A stretch of 64,000 nt of DNA from Ianthella basta (taxonomy: Eukaryota > Porifera > Demospongiae > Verongiida > Ianthellidae): positions 4,646,085 to 4,710,084 of the forward strand of contig OZ025880.1 in the NCBI GenBank assembly GCA_964019415.1. Direction: 5' to 3'. The notes below the pieces were generated by a model. That model worked only from the letters and a program-made list of their open reading frames with translations. It ran no database searches and was not told the origin of the DNA. The position numbers and the translations under genes were made by a program. The stretch's first letter is position 1, and every line of letters begins with the position of its first letter. Below are positions 4,090 through 62,791 of this stretch, one piece after another.

Positions 4090-7000
4090 ATGATGATCGG
4101 TGTTTTGGCTGGTTGTCTGCTACTCAGCTTGACTCCACATGTGATCAGCCAAGGTGAGCACTCCCCTGCTGGCAGGTCTCAGCTCTACTGGGTGGCAGCA
4201 AACAGTACACAGTGTGGCAACTTGAGCAACAGCAGCAACTGTGGCACACTGGGTGAATACCAAAGGAAAGGTGCGAACTTCTCTCTTTCTGACACCACCT
4301 GGATATTCCTACATGGTGAGCACAATGCACTGACAGTTTGGAGACTAGAAATTATGCAAGCACGAAATGTGACACTCTGAGGAGAAGAGAAGTGTGCCAT
4401 GGGAATTGAGGAATGTGTTTTAGTGATAACATGGAATGACATTTTCATATTCAAGACCATAACACATGAAAGTTATGTTTTTGAGATCTCTGTAAGCAAA
4501 TCAAGTCACATTACACTAAAAAACTTGAAGATAGTTGCTGATCAGGCAAAGTTTGCTACGATGCTGGAATTCAGCATTCTTGTGAATGAATCAAGTCATG
4601 TCACTCTTGAGCATTTAGAGGCTGCTACAAATCTTGCTACAATCAAAGTGGAACAAACAATTTTTGTGTTTGTGCTGTTGACTGCCAAAATGCCAAACTA
4701 TACATCACAAAACCAACTGGAAATTACACAATAAGGGAAAGCATCCTTTCATCAGCAGTTGTAGAAGTAAATCCCACTGTGACAGCTTGTTCTCACACAA
4801 CAGCAGAGAATTGCACTTTCAGTTTAGACATCAAAGAATGCAACCTTCAGGCTAACGGTGGTGTTAACTTCACAAATAGTAAGGAAAAAACAATGCAGAG
4901 GGTCAGGGAAATCAATTATAACTCCATCAGGCTCTCCATTGCCAACAGTACTATTTCCACCAGCTGGCTGAGTATCCATGACTACCCTATACAGTTCTGC
5001 ATTGTACAATTTAGCAATGTTACGTTTAACAGAAGTGGAGTCAATTTTATGATGCCATTACATTTCAATACACAGAATGCAACTTATCCTACTGCTGGCG
5101 ACAGATCATTGGGAGCACATGTACTTATAGATGGCTGCAAATTCCTGAGGACTTTAGGAGGGATAACTATAACTCTCCACCATTTTGGAAAAGCAAGAGC
5201 ACCAGTTACTCCCAGGGCTTACACCCATAAAACTAGCTCGAAACAAGCAGCAACGAAGCATCCTGAAATTGTTATCACCCACACACATTTTATAGATTGC
5301 ATAATTTCATCTACCGACCAAACTAGTACAGTCGATGTAAAGATCATTGGCAATACGCATACCGTTCATCCAATTGAAAACAACCGTGGGATGCTATTGA
5401 CTATTCAAAACTGTACATTCAAAAGAGCTGTGGCTATTTGGCAGGAATCGGATTGGAGCCACCATGAATACACTACCTTTGCAGCCATTGCTCTAACAGA
5501 CTTACAAGGGTACAGAGCCGCCATGGCTGGGGGCAACTACATAGAGTCAAATGAAGGATATGGGCTCATGTTGTACAAGAGTCAGGTACAGTTCCACGGG
5601 TTCAATCAAATCCACAAGAATGGAAATCTTCATAGAGGAATTAGGTGTGGGGGAATCTACATGACTTCTGACTCACAGTTGCTACTGACACCTGGTACAG
5701 TCTTGAATGTGATTGAAAACGTTGGTAGTCCATATGGTGGAGGCATTTATATCTCTCCGTATCAATTGACTGCATTTGTTGATTGCTATGTGGAGCGGCA
5801 CAACTGTCCCGGATGGTGTTTCTTTCAGTTCATCAACAGTGATGGGCAGAGTGTGAATGCAAGTGAACTAGCAGAACACAATGCAACAGTTTTGATGTCT
5901 AACAACATAGCGTCTCATGGTGGTAGAAACATTTTCAATGGTCACTTTCAGAACTGCTCTCTACAAACTGCTGATGTGAATGATACTCTACCAGCAAGCA
6001 GACAACTAATTCTTGACGTCTTCCATCAATACCCACCCATGGATGAAGAACCAATACCCTCCTACCCCTATGTCATCTGCCTCTGCATTGATGGTGAGTT
6101 CAACTGCATCAGAAAGCACACATTAGTAGTAGACACTTACCCTGTACAAAATTTCATCATATCTGTCCAAGTCATGGGAGACTGGCAGCAAGTTTTGTCA
6201 GTGATGTTGAAGATTGATGGCAATTTTGCAATCAATACCTACCAATTAAATGAAAAGAACTGCACTGACACTTACAATTTGGAACATCCCACACCAGGTA
6301 GCTTTCATTACTTCCAACTCCAGACATATCTTGTTGCTGATGTAATTGTGGATACTTCCAAGTATCATGGTGTACTAAATAGAGATCTATTGATAAAGGT
6401 CTTCAATAGTTGCTCCCCAGGGTTGGTCTACAGGGAACATGAATGTACATGCAAAGCATTTCTGAAGGATCACATGTTCACTTGCACACAAAGAACCACC
6501 ACAGCTACATACGGAGCAGACCAGACACATAACTGGATTGGGAAGAAAGGGAACAATGTTTTTCTTAGCCCTAACTGTCCATCCTTTTACTGTAACTTTG
6601 CTGTTCTGCAAAGTGGACTGACATTGGATGAAAGCACACAGAATCAGCAATGTATACGAGGCAATAACCGTCAAGGCATGCTCTGCAGTGAATGTCCATC
6701 AGGATACAGTTCAGTGTTCGGATCTTACAAATGTAAAGAGTGCTCCAGTGTGTGGTTGCTCCAGTTACCTCTGCATGCGTTGGGAGGGATCATAATCGTG
6801 GCTGGTTTGTTTCTCCTCAACTTAACTCTCCTCCAAGGAACCATCATAGGTGTGGTGCTATACACCAACATCATGGGAATCATGGGAGATTCCCTCCAAG
6901 AACATGCCTGGGGTCCACTGCTCTGTCTCCTGTCAGTCCTCAACTTGCAATCTGATGCCAGAGTATGTCTTTATGATGGCATGGATGAGTTCTGGAAGGC

Positions 7001-8147
7001 TCTACTGCAGTTTGCCTTCCCCTTCTACCTCTTCACCTTGCTCATACTCATCATCATTGTCACTCACAAGTGTGGCTACAGGATGTTCAGAAAGGCTCGC
7101 TTCATAGCCAGGAGAGCTGTACCAGTACTGGCCACCATCATGGTACTCACATACACCTCTCTTGTCAATGCTGTCATTGCTCCACTGAGGTATACTACAC
7201 TTTACGATGTAGACACTGCACAAGGTGAAACAGTTTGGCTGTATCAACCATCCTTGTCCTTCTTTGGTGGCCAACACCTTGTCATTGGCATCCTGTCCAT
7301 TGCAGTGACTGTGCTCTACCTGATTCCCTTCACATTCACAATGCTCTTTGGAGATCTGATGAGAAGGTACTTCCACAAGTTGTGGTTCAGCCACTTCATG
7401 GATGTCCTCCACGGAGGGTTCATATGGCCTCTTGGCTTTTGGATTGGTTTGAGGCTGCTAGTACGAGTCGTCCTTGTGGTCACCCACATATTCACTAGTG
7501 CAAATGTTGCTGCATATTGCACTCTTGTTACAACCGAGACACTGCTGGTTGTGCAGATGCTGGTTAAGCCATTTAGAGATCCAGATCAGTTCAGGAATAC
7601 TATCGAAGTAAGGGAACCTCTGTCTTTTGGGAGCAAGTGCAAGATACAGGTACAGAAATTTCTAAATTCCTATCACGCTCCATTGCTTGACTCACTGTAC
7701 TTGTTCAACATCGTTGTTGCAATGGCAACAGCCATCTTTGGCTCCATTCCAAGAACCAATCATGAGCTTCAGCAGCAATTTTCCACGGCAGGAATCAATA
7801 TTCTAATTATACTAGCACTTGCACAGTTTGCAGTCATCCTTGTCTACCATGCCTACAACTTCTTCCCTGCACCAGAGAAAGCTTGTAGCTGTGCCCAGTC
7901 ATGTTGGTCAACCATATGTGCCATCCCCAGCATGCTAAAGGACACTCAGTGCTGCCGGAGGAGGCCCAGGCAGGAGGAGGAACCAAGAAGGAGCCCCATC
8001 CCAATACTGATCCTACGCCCACCAGAGGTTGATGAAATCTATGAAAGTGAATCAGAGAGCAGTTCAAATACTGCACAACCTCCTCCAGAACAGGTCGAGG
8101 TGAGAGAGAGCTCTTTGCAAGAACCACTGCTGACACATGGCAGTTAA
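4090..8147 (+). pseudogene. Receptor-like multi-pass membrane protein, copy 1, broken by a stop and a frameshift
   Basis: The start is the ATG at 4090 (MMIGVLAGCLLLSL...), which begins a signal peptide aligned with the other copies. The frame is interrupted by TGA at 4378-4380, where the paralogs have CGA, and by a net 4-base deletion near 4650-4662. After that the frame shifts and stays open from about 4665 to the TAA at 8145-8147. The rest is complete: a variable Asn-glycosylation-rich ectodomain, two GGGIY-type motifs of beta-helix style near 5650-5760, a Cys cluster (CTCKAFL...MFTC), the CSECPSGYSSVFGSYKCKEC-type module near 6682, 8-9 membrane segments (about 6755-7860), and a tail ending EPLLTHGS. 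Two breaks in about 4 kb with an otherwise clean frame mean a young pseudogene, or assembly errors. I cannot tell which. Confidence 0.8.
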
Positions 8148-15268: not shown

Positions 15269-19226
<3,958 letters not shown>

Positions 19227-19340: not shown

Positions 19341-22300
19341 ATGGGCAATAGCCAACAGCTAATGATGATCATTATTCTCGTTGGTTCTCTGCTACTCAGC
19401 TTGACTCCACATGTGATCAGCCAAGGCGAGCACTCCCCTGCTGGCAGGTCTCAGCTCTACTGGGTGGCAGCAAACAGTGCACAATGTGGCAACTTGAGCA
19501 ACGGCAGCAACTGTGGCACACTGGGTGAATACCAAAGGAAAGGTGCCAACTTCTCTCTCTCTGACACCACCTGGATATTCCTACATGGTGAGCATATTGC
19601 ACAGACAGTTTGGAGGCTAGAAATTATGCAAGCACGAAATGTGACACTCCGAGGAGAAGAGAAGTGTGCCATGGGAATTGAGGAATGTGTTTTGGTGGTA
19701 ACAAATGAAATTAAAAGATTGAAGACTTGGAAGGACATGTTTCGGAATATAGTGTATAACATCTTTGTAATTGAATCAAGTCATATTACACTAGAGAACT
19801 TGAAAGTAGTTGCTGGCTACAATAGTGCAATTGGTGAGCTTGAAATCAGCATTCTTGTGAAAGAAGCAAGTCATATAGTCTTTGAACTTTTGGAGACAAC
19901 TTCAATTGCTACTTCAATCAAAATAGAAGCAACAGACAATGTGTGTATTCGTTCCGTAGACTTTCAAAATGGTGAATTGGAAATCACAGATCCAACTGGA
20001 GACTACATGGTAATGGAAAGCGTTCTTTCATCAACTTCTGTTCTAACACATCCCTCTGCCTGCTCTCAAACAACAGCAGAGAATTGTAGCTTTGACTTAA
20101 CCATTAATGAATGTATCTTTCGAAACAAAAGAACAGTTGACTTCACAGTTGAAGATTCTAAACAAAGCTTGCAGATGGCCAAAGAAAACAATTACCACTA
20201 CATTAGGCTCTTCATTGCCAACAGTACCATGAAACATTTTCTTTCTCCTAGGTCTCGGTATGAATTGTTGGATCCTCTAGGGCTTAGTATACTAATTCGC
20301 AATTACCCCACACAGTTGTGCACTGTAGAGGTCAGAAATGTTACTTTTAGAACATATGGAGTCACACTTGATATGCCATTAAGTTTCAATACAGAGAATG
20401 CAACAAATCCTACTTCTGCTGACAGATCAGTGGGAGCACATGTACTTATAGATGGCTGCAAATTCTTAAGAGCAGTACAAGGAATAACTATAACCCTTGA
20501 CAATTCAATAGAAGTAGGAACAATAGCCATTTTCGATCCTTTTCTTGACTGGGACTCCACCACTGCCACTGAACAGACAACAATGAAACATCCTGAAATT
20601 ATCATTGCCAACACAAATTTTTACAACTGCTATTTAACACAAGTTACCCGCACAATTGGTGTACAGATTTCTGGCAATTATTGGCATGACTCAACTTTGT
20701 TTATAAACAACCACAGGAGGCTGCTGACAATCCAGAACAGTACATTCACGAAAGCAAAATTTTCAGAGAATTGTCATGGCTTCCTAGACTCTAGCTTTCT
20801 TGCTGCCATTGACCTAACAAACTTACAAGGGTACAGGGTTGTCATGGCTGGGGGCAACTATATAACATCTAATGAAGGTTACGGACTTGCACTGCACAAC
20901 AGTCAGGTAGAGCTCAATGGCTATAATGAAATTAGCAAGAATACACTTGGATCCAAAATATGGGGCGGTGGAATCTACATGTCTTCTGATTCACAGTTGC
21001 TACTGACACCTGGCACAATTTTGAATGTGACTGAAAACATTGGTAGTCCATATGGTGGAGGCATTTATATCTCTCACCGCAATCAAAGCTATGATGTACA
21101 GACAATGTCACTTTCTGCATTTGTTGATTGCTATGTGGAGTTCCACAACTGTCCAGGATGGTGTTTCTTTCAGTTCATCAGCAGTGATGGGCAGAGTGTG
21201 AATGCAAGTGAACTAGCAGAACACAATGCAACAGTTTTGCTGTCAAACAACACAGCATCTCATGGTGGGAATAATGTTTTCAATGGTCACTTTCAGAACT
21301 GTTCCCTACAAACTGCTGATGTGAATGGTACTCTACCAGCAAGCAGGCAGCTAATTCTTGATGTCTTCCACCAGTACCCACCCATGGATGAAGAACCAAT
21401 ACCCTCCTACCCCTATGCCATCTGTCTCTGCATTGATGGTGAGCTCAGCTGTATCAGGAACCACACATTGGTAGTAGAAACGTACCCTGTGCAAACTTTT
21501 CACATATCAGTACACGTCATGGGAGATTGGCAGCGTGTATTGCCAGTGAAGTTCAGGGTTGATGGTGATGGTGCAACCCATCATGACACATTGAGCAAAA
21601 AGAACTGTACCGAAGCATATACGTTGAGGAATCTCACACCTGGTACTTCTCATCACATCAGACTGCAAGCACATCTTGATCTTGATGCACCTGAGGACCT
21701 TCCAATGTCACCGTACAACGATAATAATAGTATACATTCATATTATATGGGTATAATCTATAACCATCTAGTAGTAAAGGTCTTCAATAGCTGCTCTCCA
21801 GGGTTGGTCTACAAAGAACACAAATGTACATGCAATACATTTCTCAGGCATAACATGTTCACCTGTACTGTTAGGATCACCACAACTACATACAGAGCAG
21901 ACCAGCCACATTACTGGATTGGGAAGAAAGGGAACAATGTATTTCTTAGTCCCAACTGTCCAACAATTTACTGCAACTCTGTTGTCCTACAAAGTGGACT
22001 GACATTGGATAAGAGCACACAGAATCAGCAATGCATCAATGACCGTCAAGGCCTGCTCTGCAGTGAATGTCCAACAGGTTATAGCTCTGTGTTTGGCTCT
22101 TACAAATGTAAAGAGTGCTCCAGTGTGTGGTTGCTCCAGTTACCACTGCATGCATTGGGAGGGATCTTCATTGTGGCTGGTTTGTTCCTTCTCAACTTAA
22201 CTCTCCTCCAAGGAACCATCATAGGTGTGGTGCTATACACCAACATCATGGGACTCATGGGAGACTTCCTTCAAGAACATGCCTGGGGTCCTCTGTTCTT

Positions 22301-23525
22301 TCTCTTATCAGTCATCAACCTGCAACCCGGAGTGGGAGTGTGTTTATATGATGGCATGGATGAGTTCTGGAAGGCTCTGTTGCAGTTTGTCTTCCCGTTT
22401 TACCTCTTCACATTGCTAGCAGTCATCATCATTGTCACTCACAAGTGTGGCTACAGGATGTTCAGAAGGGCTCGCTTCATAGCCAGGAGAGCTGTACCAG
22501 TACTGGCCACCATCATGGTACTCACATACACTTCTCTTGTCAATGCTGTCATTGCTCCACTGAGGTATACTACACTTTACAATGTAGACACTGCACAAGG
22601 TGAAACAGTTTGGCTGTATCAACCATCCCTGCCCTTCTTTGGTGGCCAACACCTTGTCATTGGCATCCTGTCCATTGCAGTGACTGTGCTCTACCTGATT
22701 CCCTTCACATTCACAATGCTCTTTGGAGACCTGATGAGAAGGTACTTCCACAAGTTGTGGTTCAGCCACTTCATGGATGTCCTCCACGGAGGGTTCATAT
22801 GGCCTCTTGGCTTTTGGATTGGTTTGAGACTGCTAGTACGAGTCATCCTTGTGGTCACCCACATACTCACTAGTGCAGATGTTGCTGCATATTGCACTCT
22901 TGTTACAACTGGGACACTGCTGGTTGTGCAGTTGCTGGTCAAGCCATTTAGAGATCCTGATCAGTTCAGGAATGCCATCAACTTACAGGTGCCTTTGACA
23001 TTTGGAAGTAAGTGTAAGAGACAGGTAAAGAAATGTCTAAATTCCTATCACACGCCACTGTTTGACTTGCTGTACTTCCTCAACATACTTGCTGCAATGG
23101 CAACCATTATCCTTGGCTCTATTCCAAGAACTGACCGCAAGCTTCAGCAGCAATTGTCCAGTACAGGAATCAACATTCTAATCATACTAGCACTTGCACA
23201 GTCTGCAGTCATCCTTGTCTACCATGCCTACAACTTCTTCCCTGTACCGGAGAAAGCTCGTAGCTGTGCCCAGTCATGTTGGTCAACCATGCGTGCCATC
23301 CCCAGCATGCTAAAGGACACTCAGTGCTGCCGGAGGAGGCCCAAGGAGGAGGAGGAACCAAGAAGGAGCCCCATCCCAATACTGATCCTACGTCCACCAG
23401 AGATTGATGAAGTCTACGAAAGTGAATCAGAGAGCAGTTCCTACACTGAACAACCTCCTGCAGAACAGGTGGAGGTGAGAGAGAGCTCTTTGCAAGAACC
23501 ACTGCTGACACATGGCAGTCAATGA
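19341..23525 (+). CDS. Receptor-like multi-pass membrane glycoprotein, copy 2 (intact)
   Basis: Single uninterrupted frame of 1394 codons from the ATG at 19341. An in-frame ATG at 19284 exists, but the 19341 start (GCAATGGGC) is the one conserved in all copies and sits just before the signal peptide (LMMIIILVGSLLLSL, cleavage near residue 28). Residues about 30-880 form an ectodomain with many N-X-S/T sites, paired Cys and beta-helix-like phrases (WGGGIYMSSDSQLLLTPGT, YGGGIYIS). A Cys cluster (CTCNTFL...MFTC) and the module CSECPTGYSSVFGSYKCKEC follow near 905. There are 8-9 hydrophobic segments from about 928 to 1303, then a tail with CCRRRPKEEEE, RRSPIPILILRPPE, an acidic Ser-rich stretch and EPLLTHGSQ. 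I do not know a function. Topology suggests a surface receptor or channel. Not bacterial Pmp, despite similar beta-helix phrases. Confidence 0.85.
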   Translation: MGNSQQLMMIIILVGSLLLSLTPHVISQGEHSPAGRSQLYWVAANSAQCGNLSNGSNCGTLGEYQRKGANFSLSDTTWIFLHGEHIAQTVWRLEIMQARNVTLRGEEKCAMGIEECVLVVTNEIKRLKTWKDMFRNIVYNIFVIESSHITLENLKVVAGYNSAIGELEISILVKEASHIVFELLETTSIATSIKIEATDNVCIRSVDFQNGELEITDPTGDYMVMESVLSSTSVLTHPSACSQTTAENCSFDLTINECIFRNKRTVDFTVEDSKQSLQMAKENNYHYIRLFIANSTMKHFLSPRSRYELLDPLGLSILIRNYPTQLCTVEVRNVTFRTYGVTLDMPLSFNTENATNPTSADRSVGAHVLIDGCKFLRAVQGITITLDNSIEVGTIAIFDPFLDWDSTTATEQTTMKHPEIIIANTNFYNCYLTQVTRTIGVQISGNYWHDSTLFINNHRRLLTIQNSTFTKAKFSENCHGFLDSSFLAAIDLTNLQGYRVVMAGGNYITSNEGYGLALHNSQVELNGYNEISKNTLGSKIWGGGIYMSSDSQLLLTPGTILNVTENIGSPYGGGIYISHRNQSYDVQTMSLSAFVDCYVEFHNCPGWCFFQFISSDGQSVNASELAEHNATVLLSNNTASHGGNNVFNGHFQNCSLQTADVNGTLPASRQLILDVFHQYPPMDEEPIPSYPYAICLCIDGELSCIRNHTLVVETYPVQTFHISVHVMGDWQRVLPVKFRVDGDGATHHDTLSKKNCTEAYTLRNLTPGTSHHIRLQAHLDLDAPEDLPMSPYNDNNSIHSYYMGIIYNHLVVKVFNSCSPGLVYKEHKCTCNTFLRHNMFTCTVRITTTTYRADQPHYWIGKKGNNVFLSPNCPTIYCNSVVLQSGLTLDKSTQNQQCINDRQGLLCSECPTGYSSVFGSYKCKECSSVWLLQLPLHALGGIFIVAGLFLLNLTLLQGTIIGVVLYTNIMGLMGDFLQEHAWGPLFFLLSVINLQPGVGVCLYDGMDEFWKALLQFVFPFYLFTLLAVIIIVTHKCGYRMFRRARFIARRAVPVLATIMVLTYTSLVNAVIAPLRYTTLYNVDTAQGETVWLYQPSLPFFGGQHLVIGILSIAVTVLYLIPFTFTMLFGDLMRRYFHKLWFSHFMDVLHGGFIWPLGFWIGLRLLVRVILVVTHILTSADVAAYCTLVTTGTLLVVQLLVKPFRDPDQFRNAINLQVPLTFGSKCKRQVKKCLNSYHTPLFDLLYFLNILAAMATIILGSIPRTDRKLQQQLSSTGINILIILALAQSAVILVYHAYNFFPVPEKARSCAQSCWSTMRAIPSMLKDTQCCRRRPKEEEEPRRSPIPILILRPPEIDEVYESESESSSYTEQPPAEQVEVRESSLQEPLLTHGSQ

Positions 23526-25070: not shown

Positions 25071-25099
25071 AGCAGTCTATCTGACGTCACATACATTAG

Positions 25100-27020: not shown

Positions 27021-37331
<10,311 letters not shown>

Positions 37332-40016: not shown

Positions 40017-40246
40017 ACACAACTTACTGCCATAATTGGCAACGTTCACATGTACTCATACACAGAGATACATGCTTACAAATTCTCGCATACATAGCTA
40101 GCTACACATGATTACCCTTACTAAAATACTTTCATGTCTTTTACTTTTTGTGTCACCACTCTGAATGTGGTAATGCCGTACACTCCAGTTACTGCCTCCC
40201 TTTCACAATCTTGATATAGCTATACATGAAGATACCCAATACCTGC

Positions 40247-41195: not shown

Positions 41196-42207
41196 GTTTA
41201 CTTTGTTTTCAATTGTGGGTGCCTAGAACAGTAGCCCCTTGGGCTAAAAGCTTTCCCAGTTAAAATAAGAATTCCTGAGCCTGACCCTGACTGTAACATC
41301 AGGCCAGGTCTACTGCACTGTTAGATTGCTAGGGGTGCAACCTCACTAAAATTAAATTGATCATGAGTAGATATGTAACAGAATCAAAATAGTAAAACTT
41401 AATGGATTCAGACTAATGTAGAAGAAGAGGCTCATTGCTACGTTGTTCAATGTAGACGAATACGTAGTTTGTGGGCAATACGTAGCAGATTATCCAACAA
41501 CTGAATGCAGGACATTTTGGCCCGAAGGCCTTCGTCAGCTGCGTACAAACTTTCAGACTAGACAGATTCAGACTAGTACTGTAGAGCACCTCAGCATCTC
41601 ATGGACCTTCACCTGCTCATAATCGTGCATTTGTCTGTTCAAGTCTAACTCCACAAGTTACAGTCCCAATTATTAATTGCTGCATATAATCCACTAAGAA
41701 TTTTATTGGGTATAAGTGCTGGCCAATTCTGGGAAGTTGCAACTTTTATCAATAACTGGTATTTCAATTAAGCTCCTATTGGTTATGTCATAATGAGCAT
41801 GCAATGTTCTGGAGTAAGTGTTAGAATCATGATACACTCATGACAGTTGAAAATGTTAAAGATGGCTTCTTATAATGGAGTGCAACCTCTTTGGTTCACA
41901 CACAGTCAAATGAGTGAAGAGTTTGAAAGAATATTGATGACGGATGTGAAACAATGTATCGGTTGAACCTAGGTGAACTAACAAAATAAACTATCACACG
42001 TGCAGTCATAAGACAGGACAAAAGGGGATCTTTGAGCAGGTACAGTATAAGATAAGCAGTGCACATTTTTGGCTATTTTTCAGGTGTATTAGTTGCCATT
42101 CAATTTGAAAAACTAAACTTGCAGTAGTTCCCAAACTTATAGCAGATCTTTAAAAGACATCCTGAGTCAGCTACACAGCAGACTCCAAGTGCATAGATAT
42201 CTCAAGC

Positions 42208-44095: not shown

Positions 44096-44135
44096 GCAAC
44101 TCACAAAATGACTTGTGAGTTTCCAGCAGTGTGTG

Positions 44136-44234
<99 letters not shown>

Positions 44235-44867
44235 CTTGTGTACTATACCCATGTCTTGTAAAAGTATTATCTAGTGATCAAGGACAAAACAGTATATAGT
44301 CAAAGCCATTGACGCATTGTTGTGCCATGAATGAGATAGCACAATGCACTAGGGTTCACATTCAGTACAGAGACCTTTCTTTGTGCACACTAACAATAGA
44401 TGTTTGTGCATCTGTCTTTCATATACATCATGTGTGAATAGAGTATTCATGGACTATACATTTTCACTACTTGCATGTTGTCACACCGGTAGAATCAATT
44501 GTAAACAGGCCAAGACGTGCTTGCTACAATATACCATGAACAGAATAGTGTTTGTCTCCACATGCACACAGAAAACTTGTATGCACAACACTTTCAATTC
44601 TGCAGTCTTACATGTTGCACTGATGATGCACCAATCAGTTCACCAATGGCACAACTTAATCAACATACTTCCTTGGTGTACAGAACGATCTCATGCCTCG
44701 GTCACATTGGTTAATTCCTGGGCATGTTGTGTACAGGTACATACACACACAGACTTGTATCAGATGTCCTGTATATGAGCACTGCTGCAGCAAGTACAAA
44801 CCTATTATTATTTTATACTATAGTCAGTAGCTGTCAAATGTTGCTTGTAATGTTGGTAATTTGTGTG
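44096..44867. other. Intergenic unit inserted in the receptor relic
   Basis: The (GT)n array is followed by TAGCTTGTGTACTATACC, the ~100-bp module (about 44340-44450) and sequence matching 57750-57910. No gene. Confidence 0.65.
44130..44232. repeat. (GT)n microsatellite
   Basis: GT run of about 100 bp just after the break in the receptor relic. Confidence 0.95.
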
Positions 44868-44997
44868 TCTGTGCTGCTGACTCCCAAAACACTTCCACCA
44901 GACTAGACATAATCAACCCAACTGGAAATTACATTATAGTAGAAAGTACGCTTCCAACAAGTGCTATATAGAACAAATCCCACAGCTTGTTCTAAGT
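44868..44997 (+). pseudogene. Small receptor fragment downstream of the relic
   Basis: Matches 47284-47405 of copy 3 (SQNTCTILDIINPTGNYTIV region) with stops and small gaps. It derives from an earlier part of the gene than the end of the relic at 44095, so the order is rearranged. Confidence 0.75.
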
Positions 44998-46530: not shown

Positions 46531-46667
46531 TTTATTCAGATGTGCTGTAGCTAGTTGCTATTCAATTTACAAAATTTCTCAATTTGAATCTTGAAACAGT
46601 TACGGTTCCCTTAAAGACGACGTGAATCAGCTACAGTGCAGATTCCAAGTGCATGTGTATCTCAACA

Positions 46668-49600
46668 ATGGCTTATAGTCAACAGCTAATGATGATCATT
46701 ATTCTGGTTGGTTCTCTACTACTCAGTTTGACTCCACATGTGATCAGCCAAGGTGAGCACTCCCCTGCTGGCAGGTCTCAGCTCTACTGGGTGGCAGCAA
46801 ACAGTACACAATGTGGCAACTTGAGCAACGGCAGCAACTGTGGCACACTGGGTGAATACTGGAGGAAAGGTGCCAATTTCTCTCTCTCTGACACCACCTG
46901 GATATTCCTACATGGTGAGCATATTGCACTGACAGTTTGGAGGCTGGAAATTGTGCGAGCAAGAAATGTAACACTCCAAGGAGAAGAGAAGTGTGCCATG
47001 GGAGTTGAGGAGTGTGTCTTAGTGGTAAGGACTGATGGCACTGACACAATCAAGACCACATTCGTACCACAGAAATATCTCTTTCAAATCTTTGTAAGTA
47101 AATCAAGCCATGTTACTCTAAAGAACTTGAAATTTGATGATGGCTACAATGGTTCAGAGCTTACACCAATATTCCAATTCAGAATTCTTGTGATGGAAGC
47201 AAGTCATGTTACTCTTGAGCACTTGAATACTACTATAAAGTATACTACAATCAGAGTAGAAACAACAGATAATTTGTGTGTTCGTGCTGTTAACTCCCAA
47301 AACACGTGCACCATACTAGACATAATTAACCCAACTGGAAATTACACTATAGTGGAAAGTACACTTCCAACAATTGTTGTAGAAACAAATCCCACAGCTT
47401 GTTCTCATGCAACAGCAGAGAATTGTAGCTTTGGCTTGAACATTAAAGAATGTAACATTCAAGCTGAGAAAGGCATTAGCGTCACAATTGATACAGAGCA
47501 AAACATGCAGAAGGCCAGGCAAACCAATTATCACTCCATCAGGCTCTCCATTGCCAACAGTGCTATTTCCACTCATGGTTGGCCAAGCCCAGGGCTGGGC
47601 ATCCTTATCAATGAATACCCAATACAGTTCTGCAGTGTAGTAGTCACCAATGTCACTTTTAGCAGAAGAGGAGTCAGTTTTGCAATGCCATTAAGTTTCA
47701 GTACAGAGAATGCAACTTATTCTACTTCTGCTGACAGATCAGTGGGAGCATATGTACTTATAGATGGCTGTACATTCCTGAGAACAGAAGGAGGAATAAC
47801 TATATTCCTCAGCAATGACAGAGAAGCACAGGCAATAGTTACTCCTTTCAGAGCTACCACTGAACGAAATGCAATGAAGCATCCTGAAATTGTTATAACC
47901 AACACAAATTTTGAAGACTGTAGATTTATACGTACTGATGTTCCATACATAGTCGGTGTAACAATCATTCAATTTGACAATGTGTATACAATTCATTCAT
48001 TCGTAAACAACCATGAGAAGCTGTTGAGTATCCAAAACAGTACATTCAAGACAGCTGTGTCTCCTTGGGTGATGCATGAACGGGATGCTGACCAGCACCC
48101 ACATACTGTCTCTGCAATCATTGTTCTAACACAGTTACAAGGGTACAAAGTGGTTATGGCTGGAAACAACTATATAACATCTAATCAGGCATATGGACTC
48201 ATGCTGTACGGCAGTCAGGTAGAGTTCCATGGATATAATGAAATCAGCAAGAATGGATTTCAAAATATGGAAATTGGGTGCGCAGGAATCTACATGACTT
48301 CTGATTCACGTTTGCTACTGACACCTGGTACATTGTTGAATGTGACTGCAAACACAGGTTATCCATATGGTGGAGGCATTTATATCTCCCACTATCATTA
48401 CGATCCATCAGTGATATCTTTCTCACTGACTGAATTTGTTGATTGCTATGTGGAGTTCCATAATTGTCCAGGATGGTGTTTCTTCCAGTTCATCAACAGT
48501 GATGGGCAGAGTGTGAAAGCAAGTGAACTAGCAGAACACAATGCAACAGTTTTGTTGACAAACAACACAGCTGCTCATGGTGGAAATAACATTTTCAATG
48601 GTCACTTTCAGAACTGCTCTCTACAAACTGCTGATGTGAATGGTACTCTACCAGCAAGCAGACAGCTATTTCTTGATGTCTTCCACCAGTACCCACCCAT
48701 GGATGAAGAACCAATACCCTCCTACCCCTATGCCATCTGCCTCTGCACTGATGATGAGCTCAACTGTATCAGGAACCACACATTAGTAGTACACACCTAC
48801 CCAGTGCAAACATTCCCCATATCAGTCCAAGTTTTAGGAGACTGGCAGCAAGTATTGCCGATACAGTTCTCAGTTAAAGGCAATGGTGAAACCCATACAT
48901 ACCAATTGAACAAAAGGAACTGTACTGATAGTTACAGTTTGAGGCATCCAACACCTAATACTTCCAATCACCTCCTATTAGAGGCATACCTTTCAGCTGT
49001 GGACGCATTTATAGGCAATTCAGAGTATTATGATACTATACTAGCTAAAAACCTAACGGTAAAGGTCTTCAATAGCTGCTCTCCAGGGTTGGTCTACAAG
49101 GAACATGAATGTACATGCAATGCATTTCTGAAGCATCACATGTTCACTTGCACACAAAGAACCACCACAGCTACATACAGAGCAGACCAGACACATTACT
49201 GGATTGGGAAGAAGGGGAACAATGTCTTTCTTAGCCCTAACTGTCCATCCTTTTACTGCAACTCTACTGTTCTGCAAAGTGGACTGACATTGGATGAGAG
49301 TACACAGAATAAGCAGTGTAGCAATAACCGTCGAGGCCTGCTCTGCAGTGAATGCCCATCAGGTTACAGTTCAGTGTTTGGCTCTTATAAATGTAAAGAG
49401 TGTTCCAGTGTGTGGTTGCTCCAGTTGCCACTGTATGCATTGGGAGGGATATTACTTGCAGCTGGATCGTTGCTCCTCAACTTAACTCTCCTTCAAGGAA
49501 CCATCATGGGTGTGGCACTATACACCAACATCATAGGAATCATGGGAGACTTACTCAAAGAACATGCCTGGGGTCCACTGTTGTTTCTACTGTCAGTCCT

Positions 49601-50807
49601 CAACCTACAACCCGATGTGGGAGTGTGTTTTTACGATGGCATGGATGAGTTCTGGAAGGCTCTGCTGCAGTTTGCCTTCCCATTCTACCTCTTCACTTTG
49701 CTCATACTCATCATCATTGTCACTCACAAGTGTGGCTACAGAATGTTCAGAAAGGCTCGCTTCATAGCCAGGAGAGCTGTACCAGTACTGGCCACCATCA
49801 TGGTACTCACATACACATCTCTTGTGAATGCTGTCATTGCTCCACTGAGGTACACTACACTTTACAATGTAGACACTGCACAAGGTGAAACAGTGTGGCT
49901 GTATCAACCCTCCCTGCCCTTCTTTGGTGGCCAACACCTTGTCATTGGCATCCTGTCCATTGCAGTGACTGTGCTCTACCTGATTCCCTTCACATTCACA
50001 ATGCTCTTTGGAGACCTGATGAGAAGGTACTTCCACAAGTTGTGGTTCAGCCACTTCATGGATGTCCTCCACGGAGGGTTCATATGGCCTCTTGGCTTTT
50101 GGATTGGTTTGAGGCTGCTAGTACGAGTCATCCTTGTGGTCACCAACATGTACACTAGTGCAAATGTTGCTGCATATTGCACTCTTGTTACAACTGGGAC
50201 ACTGCTGGTTGTGCAGTTGTTGGTCAAGCCATTCAGGGATCCTGATCAGTTCAGGGATACCATCGAAGTAAGGGAACCTCTGTCTCTTGGGAACAAGTGT
50301 AAGAAACTATTAAAGAAATTTCTAAATTCATATCACGCTCCACTTTTTGACTTGCTGTACATTTTCAACATTGTTGTAGCAATGGCAACAGTTATCTTTG
50401 GTAGTTCCACTCTAAGATCTGAACTGCAGCAGCAATTGTCTACAGCTGGGATCAACATTCTAATCATACTAGCACTTACACAGTTTGCAGCCATCCTTGT
50501 CTACCATGCCTACAACTTCTTCCCTGTACCAGAGAAAGCTCGTAGCTGTGCCCAGTCATGTTGGTCAACCATGCGTGCCATCCCCAGCATGCTAAAGGAC
50601 ACTCAGTGCTGCCGGAGGAGGCCCAAGGAGGAGGAGGAACCAAGAAGGAGCCCCATCCCAATACTGATCCTACGCCCACCAGAGATTGATGAGAGCTATG
50701 ACAGTGAATCAGACAGCAGTTCCTATACTGAACAGCCACCTCCAGAACTGGTGGAGGTGAGAGAGAGCTCTTTACAAGAACCACTCCTGACACATGGCAG
50801 TCCATGA
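46668..50807 (+). CDS. Receptor-like multi-pass membrane glycoprotein, copy 3 (intact)
   Basis: 1379 codons from the conserved ATG at 46668 (a further in-frame ATG lies at 46653). Signal peptide MAYSQQLMMIIILVGSLLLS. The ectodomain runs to about residue 880, with N-X-S/T sites throughout. The N-terminal block QLYWVAANSTQCGNLSNGSN and the phrase YGGGIYISHYHYD are conserved among copies, while residues about 120-480 differ most. The CSECPSGYSSVFGSYKCKEC module is near 891. There are 8-9 hydrophobic segments from 915 to 1285, including FAFPFYLFTLLILIIIVTHK, VPVLATIMVLTYTSLVNAVI and LVIGILSIAVTVLYLIPFTF. The tail has CCRRRPKEEEEPRRSP, an acidic Ser-rich stretch and EPLLTHGSP. Single exon, same strand as the other copies. 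Function unknown: surface receptor or channel by topology. Confidence 0.87.
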   Translation: MAYSQQLMMIIILVGSLLLSLTPHVISQGEHSPAGRSQLYWVAANSTQCGNLSNGSNCGTLGEYWRKGANFSLSDTTWIFLHGEHIALTVWRLEIVRARNVTLQGEEKCAMGVEECVLVVRTDGTDTIKTTFVPQKYLFQIFVSKSSHVTLKNLKFDDGYNGSELTPIFQFRILVMEASHVTLEHLNTTIKYTTIRVETTDNLCVRAVNSQNTCTILDIINPTGNYTIVESTLPTIVVETNPTACSHATAENCSFGLNIKECNIQAEKGISVTIDTEQNMQKARQTNYHSIRLSIANSAISTHGWPSPGLGILINEYPIQFCSVVVTNVTFSRRGVSFAMPLSFSTENATYSTSADRSVGAYVLIDGCTFLRTEGGITIFLSNDREAQAIVTPFRATTERNAMKHPEIVITNTNFEDCRFIRTDVPYIVGVTIIQFDNVYTIHSFVNNHEKLLSIQNSTFKTAVSPWVMHERDADQHPHTVSAIIVLTQLQGYKVVMAGNNYITSNQAYGLMLYGSQVEFHGYNEISKNGFQNMEIGCAGIYMTSDSRLLLTPGTLLNVTANTGYPYGGGIYISHYHYDPSVISFSLTEFVDCYVEFHNCPGWCFFQFINSDGQSVKASELAEHNATVLLTNNTAAHGGNNIFNGHFQNCSLQTADVNGTLPASRQLFLDVFHQYPPMDEEPIPSYPYAICLCTDDELNCIRNHTLVVHTYPVQTFPISVQVLGDWQQVLPIQFSVKGNGETHTYQLNKRNCTDSYSLRHPTPNTSNHLLLEAYLSAVDAFIGNSEYYDTILAKNLTVKVFNSCSPGLVYKEHECTCNAFLKHHMFTCTQRTTTATYRADQTHYWIGKKGNNVFLSPNCPSFYCNSTVLQSGLTLDESTQNKQCSNNRRGLLCSECPSGYSSVFGSYKCKECSSVWLLQLPLYALGGILLAAGSLLLNLTLLQGTIMGVALYTNIIGIMGDLLKEHAWGPLLFLLSVLNLQPDVGVCFYDGMDEFWKALLQFAFPFYLFTLLILIIIVTHKCGYRMFRKARFIARRAVPVLATIMVLTYTSLVNAVIAPLRYTTLYNVDTAQGETVWLYQPSLPFFGGQHLVIGILSIAVTVLYLIPFTFTMLFGDLMRRYFHKLWFSHFMDVLHGGFIWPLGFWIGLRLLVRVILVVTNMYTSANVAAYCTLVTTGTLLVVQLLVKPFRDPDQFRDTIEVREPLSLGNKCKKLLKKFLNSYHAPLFDLLYIFNIVVAMATVIFGSSTLRSELQQQLSTAGINILIILALTQFAAILVYHAYNFFPVPEKARSCAQSCWSTMRAIPSMLKDTQCCRRRPKEEEEPRRSPIPILILRPPEIDESYDSESDSSSYTEQPPPELVEVRESSLQEPLLTHGSP

Positions 50808-56638: not shown

Positions 56639-57444
56639 CAGTTTGTGTATCAAAAGGACAGAACAAAAGTATACATTGTGATTGACTTATTGTGTACCCT
56701 GAATGAGATAGCACAATGCTCTAGGGTTCACATTCAATACAGAGACCTTTCTTTAAGCACACTAACAATGGATGTTTGTGCATGTGTCTTTCATATACAT
56801 CATGTGTGAATAGAGTATTCACGAACTATACATTTTCACTATAATTATACATGATGCCACACTGGTAGCAATCAATTGAAAACAATGACTTATAGTATAA
56901 TTTTACTAATTGCAATGACATGCTTGCTACAATAGCCCAGAACAGAATAATCCTTGCTATTCCTCTTAATTCAGTATCCATTTATATCTCATCAGGGCCC
57001 GGAATTCCTGTTGCGGGGATAGCCATGCATGCAGTTGTGTATACCAGGTCAAGATAATTGTAGTCTAAGAGTGGATTATGCATTTCTACCAAAACAAAGC
57101 ACTACTACGCTTGTCAGTCACTCTCATCAGATCCAGCAAGACTGTATAAATACATGCATATATAGACTGTGCACAAATGTCATGTAAGGTCACATATCCT
57201 CATGCTGAAATTATGTAAATTATGTACTCCATCATTTTATAGATTTCGCTGCCATGATGACGGGGTTCTATTCACTGTTCTTGGATCTCGTAGACTGGTG
57301 ATGGTGACTTCACCGGGCTCTATGTGTACGATGTTCACCAAACATCAAAGGTGCTTTCAACAACCTAGTCTAAATCTGTGGTGTCCAAAGCAGAGCAATT
57401 GAACCTATATGCAATGTCCGTTTTGGACAATGCTTAAGTTCCAA

Positions 57445-57530: not shown

Positions 57531-58581
57531 CGCACACAGCTTGTGTACTATACCCATGTCTTGTAAATGTATATTGCCTAATGATCAAAAGGACAGAACA
57601 AAACTTCACTCTTATTGATTTTCTGCTGAATGAGATAGCACAATGCACTAGGGTTCACATTCAGTACAGAGACCTTTCTTTGTGCACACTAACAATGGAT
57701 GTTTGCTCATGTGTCTTTCATATACATCATGTGTGAATAGAGTATTCATGGTCTATACGGTTTCACTGACATCACACTGGTAGAAATCAACTGCATGAAC
57801 ACTAACTTGTTGTACCATTGGCAATGAAATACGTACTACAATAGACAAGCACAGAATAGTGCTCTGTCTCCGAAGCACACAGTAAACTTGTATTCACAAC
57901 ACTTGCAATCGTGCACTTACATGATTACCTATCAGTACACCAAAAACGGCACAAATATAAGCTAATTTTCATCCCTAATTTATTGATGATTCTGGTGATA
58001 TTATTCATACTTCACCTCATCTACTGTCATCACATTATCACTTGACACTGGTACCACCCTGCATTTAAACTGTTTGAGTGCTTTCTTGTACCATTTCATG
58101 AAGAATGTACAGTAGTTGAAAGCTACTGAAATGTCTAAGATTGTTGAGAATCCTGGCTAGTGTGAACAAATCGAAGCATTAGCACAGTTGGACTGTTCCT
58201 GAAGCATTCATTATACCTCAGACCAAGCAGTTACTACCGAGGCCATTACATGTCCTTGCATTGGCTAGCATAAATACGATGAGAACTGGTTCACAGTTAG
58301 GATGCACCATTGTATACAGGTACCACTGTTTGTAATGTCTACTGTCCATGCTATATGATATGGTCTCTTTGCACCACTTAGTATAGCTTCAATACAGCAC
58401 CTATTTCTCCACTTGATGGCACAATATATACAATATTACTGTACATGCAGGCTGGCATGGCAGGTGAGACTATGTACATTTGCTCTACATAGTTGTAGGC
58501 TGAGCATTAACACACTTGCCACAATCAGAATAAAATTATATAACAGGACAGGACAAGAAGTGGACATTCGGCTGTAGCCAT

Positions 58582-58753: not shown

Positions 58754-61700
58754 ATGGCCAGAAGTCAACAGCTAATGATGATCATTATTCTGGTTGGTTC
58801 TCTGCTACTTAGTTTGACTCCACATGTGATCAGCCAAGGTGAGCACTCCCCTGCTGGCAGGTCTCAGCTCTACTGGGTGGCAGCAAACAGTACACAATGT
58901 GGCAACTTGAGCAACGGCAGCAACTGTGGCACACTGGGTGAATACTGGAGGAAAGGTGCCAATTTCTCTCTCTCTGACACCACCTGGATATTCCTACATG
59001 GTGAGCATGATACTGCACCGACAGTTTGGAGGCTGAAAATTATGCAAGCAAGAAATGTAACACTCCAAGGAGAGGAGAAGTGTGCCATGGGAGTTGAGGA
59101 ATGTGTCTTAGCGGTAAAGAATGAAGTCATTGACGCATTCAAGACCAAAACACAGGACTCTCACTTTCAAATCTTTGTAAGTAAATCAAGCCACATTACA
59201 TTAAAGAACTTGAAATTCAAAGCTGCCTATGATAGTTCAATGCTTACGGCAATATTCAATTTTGAAATTCTTGTGATGGAAGCAAGTCATGTTACTCTTG
59301 AGCACTTAAATACTACCATAAAGAATACTAAAATCAAAATAGAAAAAACAAACAATTTGTGTGTTCGTGCTGTTGACTCCCAAAACACTAAACTAGAGAT
59401 AGTCAACCCAACCGGAAATTACACAATTGTGGAAAGTACACTTCCAACAATTGCTATAAGAACAAATCCCAAAGCCTGTTCTTACACAACAGCAGAGAAT
59501 TGTAGCCTTGGCTTAAACATTAAAGAATGCAACATTCTTGGACCAGCTAAGGAAGGCATTAGCGTCACAATTAATACAGAGCAAAACATGCAGAAGGCCA
59601 GGCAAATCAATTATCACTCGATCATGCTCTCCATTGCCAACAGCACTATTTCCAGATCAGAACTGGTTATCTTAATCAATGGTTATCCAATACAGTTCTG
59701 CATTGTAGAAGTCACCAATGTCACTTTTAGCGGAAAAAGAGTCAGTTTTACAATGCCATTAAGTTTCAATACAGAGAATGCAACTAATTCTACCGTAACG
59801 GACAAAGCAGTGGGAGCACATGTACTTCTAGATGGCTGCAAATTCGTGAGAACAGAAGGAGGAATAACTATAACCCTCAACAATGACAGAGAAGCACAGG
59901 CAATAGTTACTCCCTCCAGAACTACTACTGAACGAGATGCAATGAAGCATCCTGAAATTGTTATCGCCAACACACATTTTGAAGATTGCACATTTGAACA
60001 AACTGATGGCGCATACATAGTCTTAGTAAGAATCATTGGCAATGCCCATACAGTTCATTCCTTTGTAAACAACCATGAGAAGCTGTTGAGTATCCAAAAC
60101 AGTACATTCAAGACAGCTGTTTCTCCTTGGGTGAAATTCATTGATTGGGATGCTGACCAGCGCCCACATACTGTCTCTGCAATCATTGTTCTAGAAAACT
60201 TACAAGGGTACAGGGTCGTCATGGCTGGGAGCAACTATATAACATCAAACCAAGGATATGGACTCATGCTGTTCGGCAGTCAGGTAGAGTTCCATGGCTA
60301 TAATGAAATCAGCAAGAATGGATTTCAAAATATGGAAATTGCGTGCGCAGGACTCTACATGACTTCTGATTCACGTTTGTTGCTAACACCTGGTACAGTC
60401 TTGAATGTGACTGCAAACTATGGTTATCCATATGGTGGAGGCATTTTCATCTCTCACTATCATTTCGATCCATCAGTGAAATCAATGTCACTGACTGGAT
60501 TTGTTGATTGCTATGTGGAGTTACACAAATGTTCAGGATGGTGTTTCTTCCAGTTCATCAACAGTGATGGGCAGAGTGTGAATGCAAGTGAACTAGCAGA
60601 ACACAATGCAACAGTTTTGTTGGTAAACAACACAGCGCCTCATGGTGGGAACAATGTTTTCAATGGTCACTTTCAGAATTGCTCTCTACAAACTGCTGAT
60701 GTGAATGGTACTCTACCAGCAAGCAGACAGCTAATTCTTGATGTCTTCCATCAGTACCCACCCATGGATGAAGAACCAATACCCTCCTACCCCTATGTCA
60801 TCTGCCTCTGCATTGATGGTGAGCTCAACTGCATCAGGAACCACACATTAGTAGTACACACCTACCCAGTGCAAAATTTCCTCATTTCCGTCCAAGTTTT
60901 AGGAGACTGGCAGCAAGTATTGCCAATAGAGTTGACAGTTTATGTCAATGGTGACACCCACACCTACCAACTAAAGAAAATGAACTGTACTGAAGTTTAC
61001 AACTTTAAGTTGGGCCATACCAAACCTGGTACATCTAATTACCTCCCACTACAGGCCTATTATGCAGCTATGAATGTGTTTTTGGACAATACAGAGTTTT
61101 ATGATGCTATACTATCTAAAACGTTAGTGGTAAACATCTTCAATAGCTGCTCTCCAGGGTTGGTCTACAAAGACCATGAATGTACATGCAAAGCATTTCT
61201 GAAGCATCACATGTTCACATGCACACAAAGAACCACCACAGCTACATACAGAGCAGACCAGCCACATTACTGGATTGGCGAGAAAGGAAACTATGTCTTT
61301 CTTAGCCCCAACTGCCCATCTGTTTACTGCAACTCTGCTGTTCTGCAAAGTGGACTAACATTGGATGAGAGTACACAGAATAAGCAATGTATCAATGACC
61401 GTAAAGGGTTGCTCTGCAGTGAATGCCCGTCAGGTTACAGTTCAGTGTTTGGCTCTTACAATTGTAAACAGTGCTCCAGTGCATGGTTGCTGCAGTTACC
61501 ACTGTACGCATTAGGAGGGATTGTAACTGTGGCTGGACTGTTCCTCCTCAACTTAACTCTCCTCCAAGGAACCATCATGGGTGTGGTGCTATACACCAAC
61601 ATCATGGGAATCATGGGAGACTTCCTCCAAGAACATGCCCGGGGACCCTTTTTCTTTCTCCTATCAGTCTTCAACCTACAATCTGGTTCTGGGATGTGTT

Positions 61701-62791
61701 TTTATGATGGCATGGATGAGTTCTGGAAGGCTCTACTGCAGTTTGCCTTCCCCTTCTACCTCTTCACTTTGCTCATAGTCATCATCATTGTCACTCACAA
61801 GTGTGGCTACAGGATATTCAGAAAGGCTCGCTTCATAGCCAGGAGAGCTGTACCAGTACTGGCCACCATCATGGTACTCACATACACCTCTCTTGTCAAT
61901 GCTGTCATTTCTCCACTGAGGTATACTACACTTTACAATGTAGACACTGCACAAGGTGAAACAGTTTGGCTGTATCAACCATCCCTGCCCTTCTTTGGTG
62001 GCCAACACCTTGTCATTGGCATCCTGTCCATTGCAGTGACTGTGCTCTACCTGATTCCCTTCACATTCACAATGCTCTTTGGAGATCTGATGAGAAGGTA
62101 CTTCCACAAGTTGTGGTTCAGCCACTTCATGGATGTCCTCCACGGAGGGTTCAGATGGCCTCTTGGCTTTTGGATTGGTTTGAGGCTGCTAGTACGAGTC
62201 ATCCTTGTGGTCACCCACATATTCACTAGTGCAGATGTTGCTGCATATTGCACTCTTGTTACAACTGGGACACTGCTGGTTGTGCAGTTGCTGGTCAAGC
62301 CATTTAGGGATCCTGATCAGTTCAGGAATACCACTGACTTAAGAGAACCTCTGTCTTTTGGGAGCAATTGCAAGAAACCGTTAAAGAAATTTCTAAATTC
62401 ATATCACGCTCCACTTTTTGACTTGCTGTACATTTTCAACATCGTTATCGCAATGGCAACAGTCATCTTTGGTGATTCCACTCCACGATCTGAACTGCAG
62501 CAGCAACTCTCCACAGCAGGTATCAACATTCTAATCATACTTGCACTTGCACAGTTTGCAGTCATCCTGGTCTACCATGCCTACAACTTCTTCCCTGTAC
62601 CAGAGAAAGCTCGTAGCTGTGCCCAGTCTTGTTGGTCAACCATGCATGCCATTCCCAGCATGCTAAAGGACACTCAGTGCTGCCGGAGGAGGCCCAAGGA
62701 GGAGGAGGAACCAAGAAGGAGCCCCATCCCAATACTGATCTTACGCCCACCAGAGATTAATGAGAGCCACGACAATGAACCAGAACGCTGA
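58754..62791 (+). CDS. Receptor-like multi-pass membrane glycoprotein, copy 4 (C-terminal tail lost)
   Basis: 1345 codons from the conserved ATG at 58754 (GCAATGGCC). The frame also extends upstream to an ATG at 58580, but that part is the homologue of untranslated sequence in the other copies. Signal peptide MARSQQLMMIIILVGSLLLS. The ectodomain is closest to copy 3. The Cys module CSECPSGYSSVFGSYNCKQC lies near 886. The membrane segments (about 911-1282) are nearly identical to the others, with FIWPLGFW changed to FRWPLGFW. The tail keeps CCRRRPKEEEEPRRSPI and RPPEINESHDNE, then stops at PER. The acidic Ser-rich end and EPLLTHGS are missing, owing to a deletion that joins the coding region to sequence matching about 50905 of the copy 3 flank. 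Confidence 0.85.
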   Translation: MARSQQLMMIIILVGSLLLSLTPHVISQGEHSPAGRSQLYWVAANSTQCGNLSNGSNCGTLGEYWRKGANFSLSDTTWIFLHGEHDTAPTVWRLKIMQARNVTLQGEEKCAMGVEECVLAVKNEVIDAFKTKTQDSHFQIFVSKSSHITLKNLKFKAAYDSSMLTAIFNFEILVMEASHVTLEHLNTTIKNTKIKIEKTNNLCVRAVDSQNTKLEIVNPTGNYTIVESTLPTIAIRTNPKACSYTTAENCSLGLNIKECNILGPAKEGISVTINTEQNMQKARQINYHSIMLSIANSTISRSELVILINGYPIQFCIVEVTNVTFSGKRVSFTMPLSFNTENATNSTVTDKAVGAHVLLDGCKFVRTEGGITITLNNDREAQAIVTPSRTTTERDAMKHPEIVIANTHFEDCTFEQTDGAYIVLVRIIGNAHTVHSFVNNHEKLLSIQNSTFKTAVSPWVKFIDWDADQRPHTVSAIIVLENLQGYRVVMAGSNYITSNQGYGLMLFGSQVEFHGYNEISKNGFQNMEIACAGLYMTSDSRLLLTPGTVLNVTANYGYPYGGGIFISHYHFDPSVKSMSLTGFVDCYVELHKCSGWCFFQFINSDGQSVNASELAEHNATVLLVNNTAPHGGNNVFNGHFQNCSLQTADVNGTLPASRQLILDVFHQYPPMDEEPIPSYPYVICLCIDGELNCIRNHTLVVHTYPVQNFLISVQVLGDWQQVLPIELTVYVNGDTHTYQLKKMNCTEVYNFKLGHTKPGTSNYLPLQAYYAAMNVFLDNTEFYDAILSKTLVVNIFNSCSPGLVYKDHECTCKAFLKHHMFTCTQRTTTATYRADQPHYWIGEKGNYVFLSPNCPSVYCNSAVLQSGLTLDESTQNKQCINDRKGLLCSECPSGYSSVFGSYNCKQCSSAWLLQLPLYALGGIVTVAGLFLLNLTLLQGTIMGVVLYTNIMGIMGDFLQEHARGPFFFLLSVFNLQSGSGMCFYDGMDEFWKALLQFAFPFYLFTLLIVIIIVTHKCGYRIFRKARFIARRAVPVLATIMVLTYTSLVNAVISPLRYTTLYNVDTAQGETVWLYQPSLPFFGGQHLVIGILSIAVTVLYLIPFTFTMLFGDLMRRYFHKLWFSHFMDVLHGGFRWPLGFWIGLRLLVRVILVVTHIFTSADVAAYCTLVTTGTLLVVQLLVKPFRDPDQFRNTTDLREPLSFGSNCKKPLKKFLNSYHAPLFDLLYIFNIVIAMATVIFGDSTPRSELQQQLSTAGINILIILALAQFAVILVYHAYNFFPVPEKARSCAQSCWSTMHAIPSMLKDTQCCRRRPKEEEEPRRSPIPILILRPPEINESHDNEPER

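Follow-up and report, generated by a model that had tools for sequence, protein, structure and literature searches.

What kind of protein is encoded by a tandem array of very large, intronless-looking genes in a sponge, each predicted to have a signal peptide, an ectodomain of several hundred residues and a multi-pass membrane domain? The question is raised by a stretch of 64 kb of the Ianthella basta genome, referred to here as the window (C13:4646085-4710084, where C13 is one of the 96 contigs of an assembly of 209,087,449 bases; feature coordinates are counted from the first base of the window). Based on the anatomy of the proteins, a distant domain link and the way the genes evolve, we tentatively propose that they encode clustered cell-surface recognition receptor-channels. 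No description of the family was found among the titles, abstract openings and top-ranked matches of the literature. Possible counterparts are multi-pass proteins with a beta-helix, still uncharacterised, from cnidarians, sponges and placozoans, whose cysteine-module and membrane-domain motifs seem similar.

Four large copies and one relic, all on the plus strand, were identified from the list of open reading frames (ORFs) and by tblastn, with open frames at 4893-8147, 19284-23525, 46653-50807 and 58580-62791. The proteins of the four large frames are 70-83% identical in pairwise tblastn comparisons over most of their length, and direct repeats of 300 bases run in register through the four copies with 66-94% identity by segment. 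Four repeats of frames of 1084 to 1413 amino acids at this level of protein identity lie far beyond chance, and the same-strand tandem array described in an initial annotation of the locus is borne out by ORFs, tblastn and direct repeats alike. Three of the four large copies are intact single-frame genes of 1384-1413 amino acids reaching from signal peptide to tail: copy B (19341..23525, with the conserved start at 19341 in a frame open from the ATG at 19284), copy D (46653..50807, 1384 amino acids, the reference for all residue numbers) and copy E (58754..62791, in a frame open from the ATG at 58580), whose C-terminal tail ends about 29 residues short of that of copy D. Copy A (about 4079..8147) is broken in its 5' part; its first 600 bases or so are interrupted by an in-frame stop (TGA) and the loss of 4 bases, which is why its long frame starts at 4893 and has no signal peptide. 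The relic, copy C (42153..44993), survives in several frames as pieces between 42153 and 44094 and a further stretch at 44857-44993. Single-exon structure is deduced here from frames that are unbroken between signal peptide and tail in genomic DNA. An antisense membrane-domain fragment (40244..40387, minus strand) corresponds to residues 1022-1068 or thereabouts of copy D, and 139 bases of it (40244-40382) are 96-98% identical to part of that domain. A short stretch at 25067-25153 on the minus strand resembles the cysteine module, with 69-81% identity over about 21-29 amino acids, and is either a fragment or due to chance.

The order of parts, namely signal peptide, mostly-beta ectodomain, stalk with 11 cysteines, membrane domain and charged tail, is the same in every whole protein read, including a distant one encoded on contig C14; for the branches on C4, C15 (6.4 Mb) and C7, the membrane domains alone were read. 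The anatomy was derived from an alignment of 29 proteins, of which alignment A6 took 20 and alignment A7 took 18. In copy D, the hydrophobic core of the signal peptide spans residues 12-30 according to hydropathy (46686..46742) and is followed by the ectodomain (residues 34-805; 46752..49067), which is made up of an N-terminal cap, a variable part and a GGG-bearing core. Entropy across the 29 proteins is highest at residues 161-480 and 721-800, while the core at residues 521-640 is more conserved. The ectodomain had been described as glycosylated, and 23, 25 and 21 N-glycosylation sequons are indeed predicted from the sequences of copies D, E and B, with 1, 3 and 1 of them, respectively, lying beyond residue 930. 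The ectodomain model consists mostly of strands, with mean confidence per block (predicted local distance difference test, pLDDT) mostly between 60 and 90 and dips to 29 for residues 110-535 of 888, and values below 50 past residue 535. In a Foldseek search with this model, the phage depolymerase Depo32, PfbA and the fucoidan lyase FdlA came out on top, among unrelated folds. A Pfam scan detected Beta_helix at E <=0.1 in 8 of 20 members with a best value of 1.4e-5, and L061, the distant protein of C14, has a Chlam_PMP match over the cut-off in addition to a Beta_helix match. The ectodomain resembles right-handed beta-helix proteins (PF13229, PF02415) in its GGG phrases and mostly-beta model; unlike in these proteins, however, the Beta_helix scores stay below the cut-off wherever bits were shown (best 25.2 vs 25.9), and the fold matches are not significant.

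The stalk of copy D (residues 806-918; 49068..49406) was delimited by profile scan and alignment and contains cysteines at positions 809, 820, 822, 833, 864, 869, 889, 898, 901, 914 and 917, each of which is present in at least 27 of the 29 proteins. It probably harbours a DUF7630 module (PF24633), which it resembles in that the cysteine module adjoins the first helix; DUF7630, however, spans 45 positions only, and the four window copies scored 18.4-25.1 bits in whole-protein hmmscan runs, below the cut-off of 27. In a genome search with DUF7630, for which 150 of 173 candidates were scored, 26 places exceeded the cut-off, copies B, D and E among them, and all of these lie in family arrays on C13 and C23. 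The membrane domain of copy D (residues 919-1290; 49407..50522) is followed by the cytosolic tail (50523..50804), whose sequence is basic and then acidic, with PLL near its end; a [PA]LL motif occurs within the last 45 residues of 17 of 23 tails. An NCBIfam scan of four proteins yielded no match. The initial annotation had regarded this architecture as impossible to assign, and this is now partly resolved: Pfam has the cysteine module as DUF7630, there are weak signs of a beta-helix, and sister branches are known for the membrane domain.

The family extends far beyond the window, in agreement with the clustered multi-copy family noted earlier. Using the membrane domain of copy D as a query, 95 matched pieces were found that merged into 84 places (92 of 139 candidates scored), and for 63 of these 95 rows the match is free of stops and belongs to a frame of 1280 amino acids or more. 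Three further queries, L061 (C14 branch), L062 (C4) and L063 (C15), raised the union to 254 places, or 243 when contig C86 is set aside; the genes of this contig have scores equal to those of the C4 array and may represent its second haplotype. As each search scored part of its candidates and fragments are included, the figure is to be read as at least 243 places and not as a count of intact genes; 226 of the 243 sit in 21 clusters of three or more, and the window copies belong to an array of 19 places. When 55 membrane domains were placed in a tree, the rows of C13, C18 and C22 each formed one clade (100/100), and those of C23 required two changes; the tree left out the window copies L001, L002, L004 and L006, the partial or broken L021, L029 and L030, and L033 and L056 because of a short membrane match. 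On C4 (10.88-10.95 Mb), equal-scoring genes recur at an offset of about 52.9 kb and again on C86, which may reflect a recent segmental duplication or haplotype copies. Open frames of 2947-3364 amino acids surround the membrane-domain matches at C19:4040494, C4:11081733, C4:10790898 and C15:5339564; with about twice the usual length, they may be fused or double copies. No relative was found in scans of viral contigs and genome contigs. A large and partly tandem set of surface receptors has also been described for the sponge Amphimedon, where 296 SRCR genes, 158 of them in tandem arrays, are reported (PMC10855680). As far as this account goes, the Amphimedon genes encode SRCR domains and have exons and introns, whereas the family described here combines a beta-helix-like ectodomain with a probable nine-helix membrane domain and looks intronless.

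Substitution patterns were analyzed by the NG86 method for window copies B, D and E, for 16 genes on C18 and for 13 loci on C23 (C-terminal parts only). The ratio of nonsynonymous to synonymous substitution rates (dN/dS) amounts overall to 0.52-0.78 in the variable ectodomain segments versus 0.26-0.35 in the membrane domain. Copies B, D and E have ratios of 0.52-0.69 for variable segments, 0.49 for the core, 0.37 for the cap and 0.32 for the membrane domain, and the C18 genes show values of 0.52 for variable segments and 0.26 for the membrane domain. The variable ectodomain segments thus diverge faster than the membrane domain, in line with the fast-evolving cluster proposed in the initial annotation. 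Within the segment at residues 321-480, dN exceeds dS in 4 of 28 pairs (C13), 2 of 120 (C18) and 5 of 52 (C23). These values do not support a claim of positive selection, the single mean ratio above 1 being that of the C18 signal peptide (1.63, 6 pairs). Synonymous divergence (dS) is uneven along the genes: in B, D and E the cap (0.10), the membrane domain (0.20) and the tail (0.13) have lower values than residues 121-320 (0.61), and in the 13 loci of C23 it is 0.28 in the membrane domain versus 1.18 in the stalk. In each of the six pairwise comparisons of window copies, runs of identical codons were longer than in shuffles, no more than 1 of 2000 of which had an equally long run; when only codons of equal amino acid were considered, shuffles reached the observed run in 69, 6, 0, 1, 0 and 19 of 2000 cases. 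The low dS at the gene ends together with these runs suggests that partial gene conversion homogenises the gene ends, although the low dS may alternatively stem from constraint on synonymous sites.

Clustered ectodomains that diverge between homogenised gene ends, in many copies of which some are broken, would also fit an allorecognition or self-marking system, in which individuals differ in their ectodomain variants and the membrane part mainly serves as an anchor and signals contact. However, a probable nine-helix domain exceeds the needs of an anchor, and the mean dN/dS of the ectodomain is below 1, so that we consider this explanation unlikely.

The membrane domain, for which the initial annotation had counted 8-9 segments, shows eight stronger hydropathy peaks outside the signal peptide (1.43-2.89; near residues 924, 1004, 1045, 1096, 1150, 1173, 1231 and 1265 of copy D in the alignment mean) and a weaker one at 976-994 (1.34). 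Peaks of individual proteins above one threshold number 4-10, signal peptides and cut-off proteins counted. A ninth helix is probably placed somewhere in 947-994, and nine helices with the N-terminus outside and the C-terminus inside probably fit the loop charges better than eight. In the nine-helix layout, averaged over 18 membrane domains, the inner loops have net charges of +5.0, +2.2, +2.4 and +1.3 and the outer loops of -1.6, -0.2, -0.5 and -0.4, with 0.0 for a short first inner loop and +0.3 for the stretch preceding the first helix; a layout with eight helices would put the strongly basic loop (+5.0) outside.

Pfam assigned the membrane domain of the window copies to no family. When a profile of the 18 membrane domains was aligned by hhalign with four domains of distant branches, scores of 105-115 and probabilities of 98.2-98.5% were obtained, the L061 domain reaching 98.5%. 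In the controls, reversed sequences scored 15-23 (probability at most 1.3%), an unrelated frame of the window 11 (0.05%) and 40 block shuffles 25-51 (2.7-88%). The whole L061 protein in turn matches PF06011, the fungal transient receptor potential (TRP)/Flc/Pkd2 family, with 30.2 bits at a cut-off of 28.5. A genome search with PF06011 gave 13 matches at E <=1; five of the best six are on C14, and the two over the cut-off are both from this contig. The link between the window branch and the fungal TRP proteins is therefore a chain of profile matches that runs through the C14 branch, without a direct match, and it suggests that the membrane domain is probably a distant likeness of the fungal Pkd2/Flc channels. 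At C18 0.49-0.56 Mb, weak PF06011 matches below the cut-off are found in short frames, perhaps those of a multi-exon relative. As described for Pkd2 (PMC11277609), the fungal proteins share with the sponge family an extracellular N-terminal domain, a nine-helix membrane domain (predicted here) and a cytosolic tail. However, most fungal members are described as having an ML-like ectodomain (PMC9600462) instead of a beta-helix-like one on a cysteine stalk, and the ML-like domain (PF14558) is absent from the six families found at E <=0.1 in 20 members here. They also number at least two per fungal species, with four in S. cerevisiae (PMC9600462), as opposed to hundreds of matches.

The distant PF06011 link would also be consistent with mechanosensitive calcium channels whose ectodomain is tethered to the matrix or meets the water flow and whose Pkd2-like domain is opened by tension. 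Pkd2 of fission yeast, in which a membrane domain of nine helices connects an extracellular domain with a cytosolic tail, is reported to be stretch-activated and to let calcium pass upon membrane stretch (PMC11277609). Yet hundreds of diverging copies seem to go beyond what a tension sensor needs, and the PF06011 link is indirect for the window branch; such mechanosensitive channels thus appear improbable. A family of carriers related to fungal Flc, in which the ectodomain captures cargo, would fit PF06011 as well, since this family also covers the Flc proteins, which are called putative flavin carriers (PMC9600462). The same source, as far as it was available, also reports calcium roles for Flc proteins, and fast ectodomain divergence along with a large expansion would be unusual for housekeeping transport, which makes a carrier quite unlikely. 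G-protein-coupled receptors with an unusual number of helices are highly improbable: large cysteine-stalked ectodomains and clustering are reminiscent of class C and chemosensory receptors, but no 7tm family was detected at E <=1 in seven proteins, including the four window copies, or at E <=10 in six membrane domains, and the loop charges fit nine helices, with more than seven being predicted.

Receptor-channels, the reading favoured here, would work as follows. The ectodomain would bind a surface ligand, our best guess being a glycan or the surface of a particle, as beta-helices often bind polysaccharides. Binding or tension would be relayed via the disulphide-rich stalk to the Pkd2/Flc-like nine-helix domain, which would admit calcium or signal otherwise. 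Tandem duplication and gene-conversion-like homogenisation would keep the membrane part and the gene ends uniform, and an ectodomain diverging on a uniform membrane part would give rise to a varied repertoire. Several results weigh against this proposal. The membrane domain of L061 alone reaches 24.9 bits against PF06011, below the cut-off of 28.5, none of six other membrane domains scanned, copy D included, was matched by this profile, and a pairwise search with L061, in which 96 of 327 candidates were scored, listed no place in the array of the window. The large-ectodomain channel family that the initial annotation offered as an option thus gains indirect support via the C14 branch, and copy D itself stays unmatched. 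Profile searches of solved structures gave no convincing match. Structure prediction, which had been suggested as a check, produced a membrane-domain model from four close paralogs with a mean pLDDT of 33, unusable for pore architecture; in the ectodomain model, only 220 of 888 residues reach a pLDDT of at least 70, and none of 888 Foldseek matches reached E <=0.001 (best 2.6e-3). Furthermore, no ectodomain segment has a mean dN/dS above 1, and the dS contrast is weak on C18, with 0.44 in the membrane domain, 0.26 in the tail and 0.51-0.52 in variable segments.

Direct repeats outside the genes revealed a noncoding element upstream of the window copies, all instances being on the plus strand. 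It is present on the copy A side at 1650..1798 and 2861..3009 (direct repeats, genome search, core search), on the copy B side at 15604..15752 (not listed by the core search; its core has a 1-base gap), at 16881..17029 (direct repeats, core search) and as a partial copy at 17760..17853 (direct repeats), on the copy D side at 44321..44469 and on the copy E side at 56693..56841 and 57620..57768 (all three by direct repeats, genome search and core search). These repeats supplied the 149-base query for a genome search, taken from the copy D side, which returned 40 places (91 candidates), 35 of them on C13, where they cover the window array and the arrays of L062-type genes at 1.94-2.60 Mb (overall span 1.93-2.60 and 4.61-4.78 Mb). 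For 34 of these 35, the nearest gene listed is on the same strand, and the membrane domains of the two gene branches with the element are about 20% identical. A 35-base core was found at up to 3 mismatches in 57 genome copies, 49 on C13 and 8 elsewhere, and the reversed pattern in none. The 49 cores are confined to four stretches that together account for 6.8% of C13, the limits of which were set with the sites already in view. Estimated gene bodies contain none of these cores, compared with a mean of 18.7 and a minimum of 8 for random positions. On the gene strand, 39 occur in the 4 kb upstream, compared with a mean of 14.1 and a maximum of 25 for random positions and a mean of 21.0 and a maximum of 32 for random strands. 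These figures use estimated gene ends and sites that are not independent because tandem duplication carries elements along. An upstream core is present for 31 of the 40 array genes listed, and for 2 of the 49 cores the next 12 kb downstream contain no gene on the same strand.

Over about 120 core bases, the copy D element is 87-100% identical to the copy A and C13 2.06 Mb copies and 80-97% identical to a copy on C7; immediately downstream of this core, identity drops to 17-50%, whereas the upstream flank, as far as compared, has 43-83%. All eight cores outside C13, the C7 copy included, are more than 1 Mb away from the family places found, and conservation of the element is therefore not confined to the arrays. 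At up to 3 mismatches, no core was found in the L062-type arrays on C4 and C15 or on C18; the 1.5 kb or so preceding each of 16 C18 genes contained none at up to 12 mismatches either, although many C13 copies sit further upstream than this. That the element accompanies every array was rejected, since these searches gave no core for the C18 genes. A stable RNA was likewise rejected given the inconsistent fold z-scores of three of the eight window copies (-3.24, -0.36, -0.86), as was a 5' exon, since 7 of the 8 copies lack a donor-like GT[AG]AG site in the 260 bases that follow the start of the core; a scan of the window showed no tRNA and no Rfam family. The element, of about 110-150 bases, might be a control module shared by the receptor arrays of one chromosome across two branches, acting in cis for the co-ordinated or exclusive choice among hundreds of receptor-channels. 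We give this idea only a slim chance, all the more so because the C7 copy far from the arrays is equally well conserved. Local spread by conversion or transposition is a strong alternative, and the element may be a mobile one.

Other features are interspersed in the array. A long interspersed nuclear element (LINE)-like element with endonuclease/exonuclease and reverse transcriptase domains lies between copies A and B (11844-15221, plus strand). At 29285-29677 on the minus strand, a class 3 lipase exon (PF01764, 5.9e-9) belongs to a minus-strand gene inside the array, which, judged by eye, perhaps encodes a diacylglycerol lipase. An inverted repeat at 52098-52928 has 224-base arms that are 88% complementary and contains further nested inverted repeats.

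With at least 243 places, the family is similar in order of size to the set of 296 SRCR genes described in a sponge (PMC10855680). Should the membrane domain prove to be a Pkd2/Flc-like channel, a channel type that is known in fungi would, in another eukaryote, be combined with a huge repertoire of ectodomains. The shared upstream element makes the control of clustered receptor genes directly testable, and the receptor-channel proposal, if true, would offer a testable route to the sensing of surfaces, microbes or kin.

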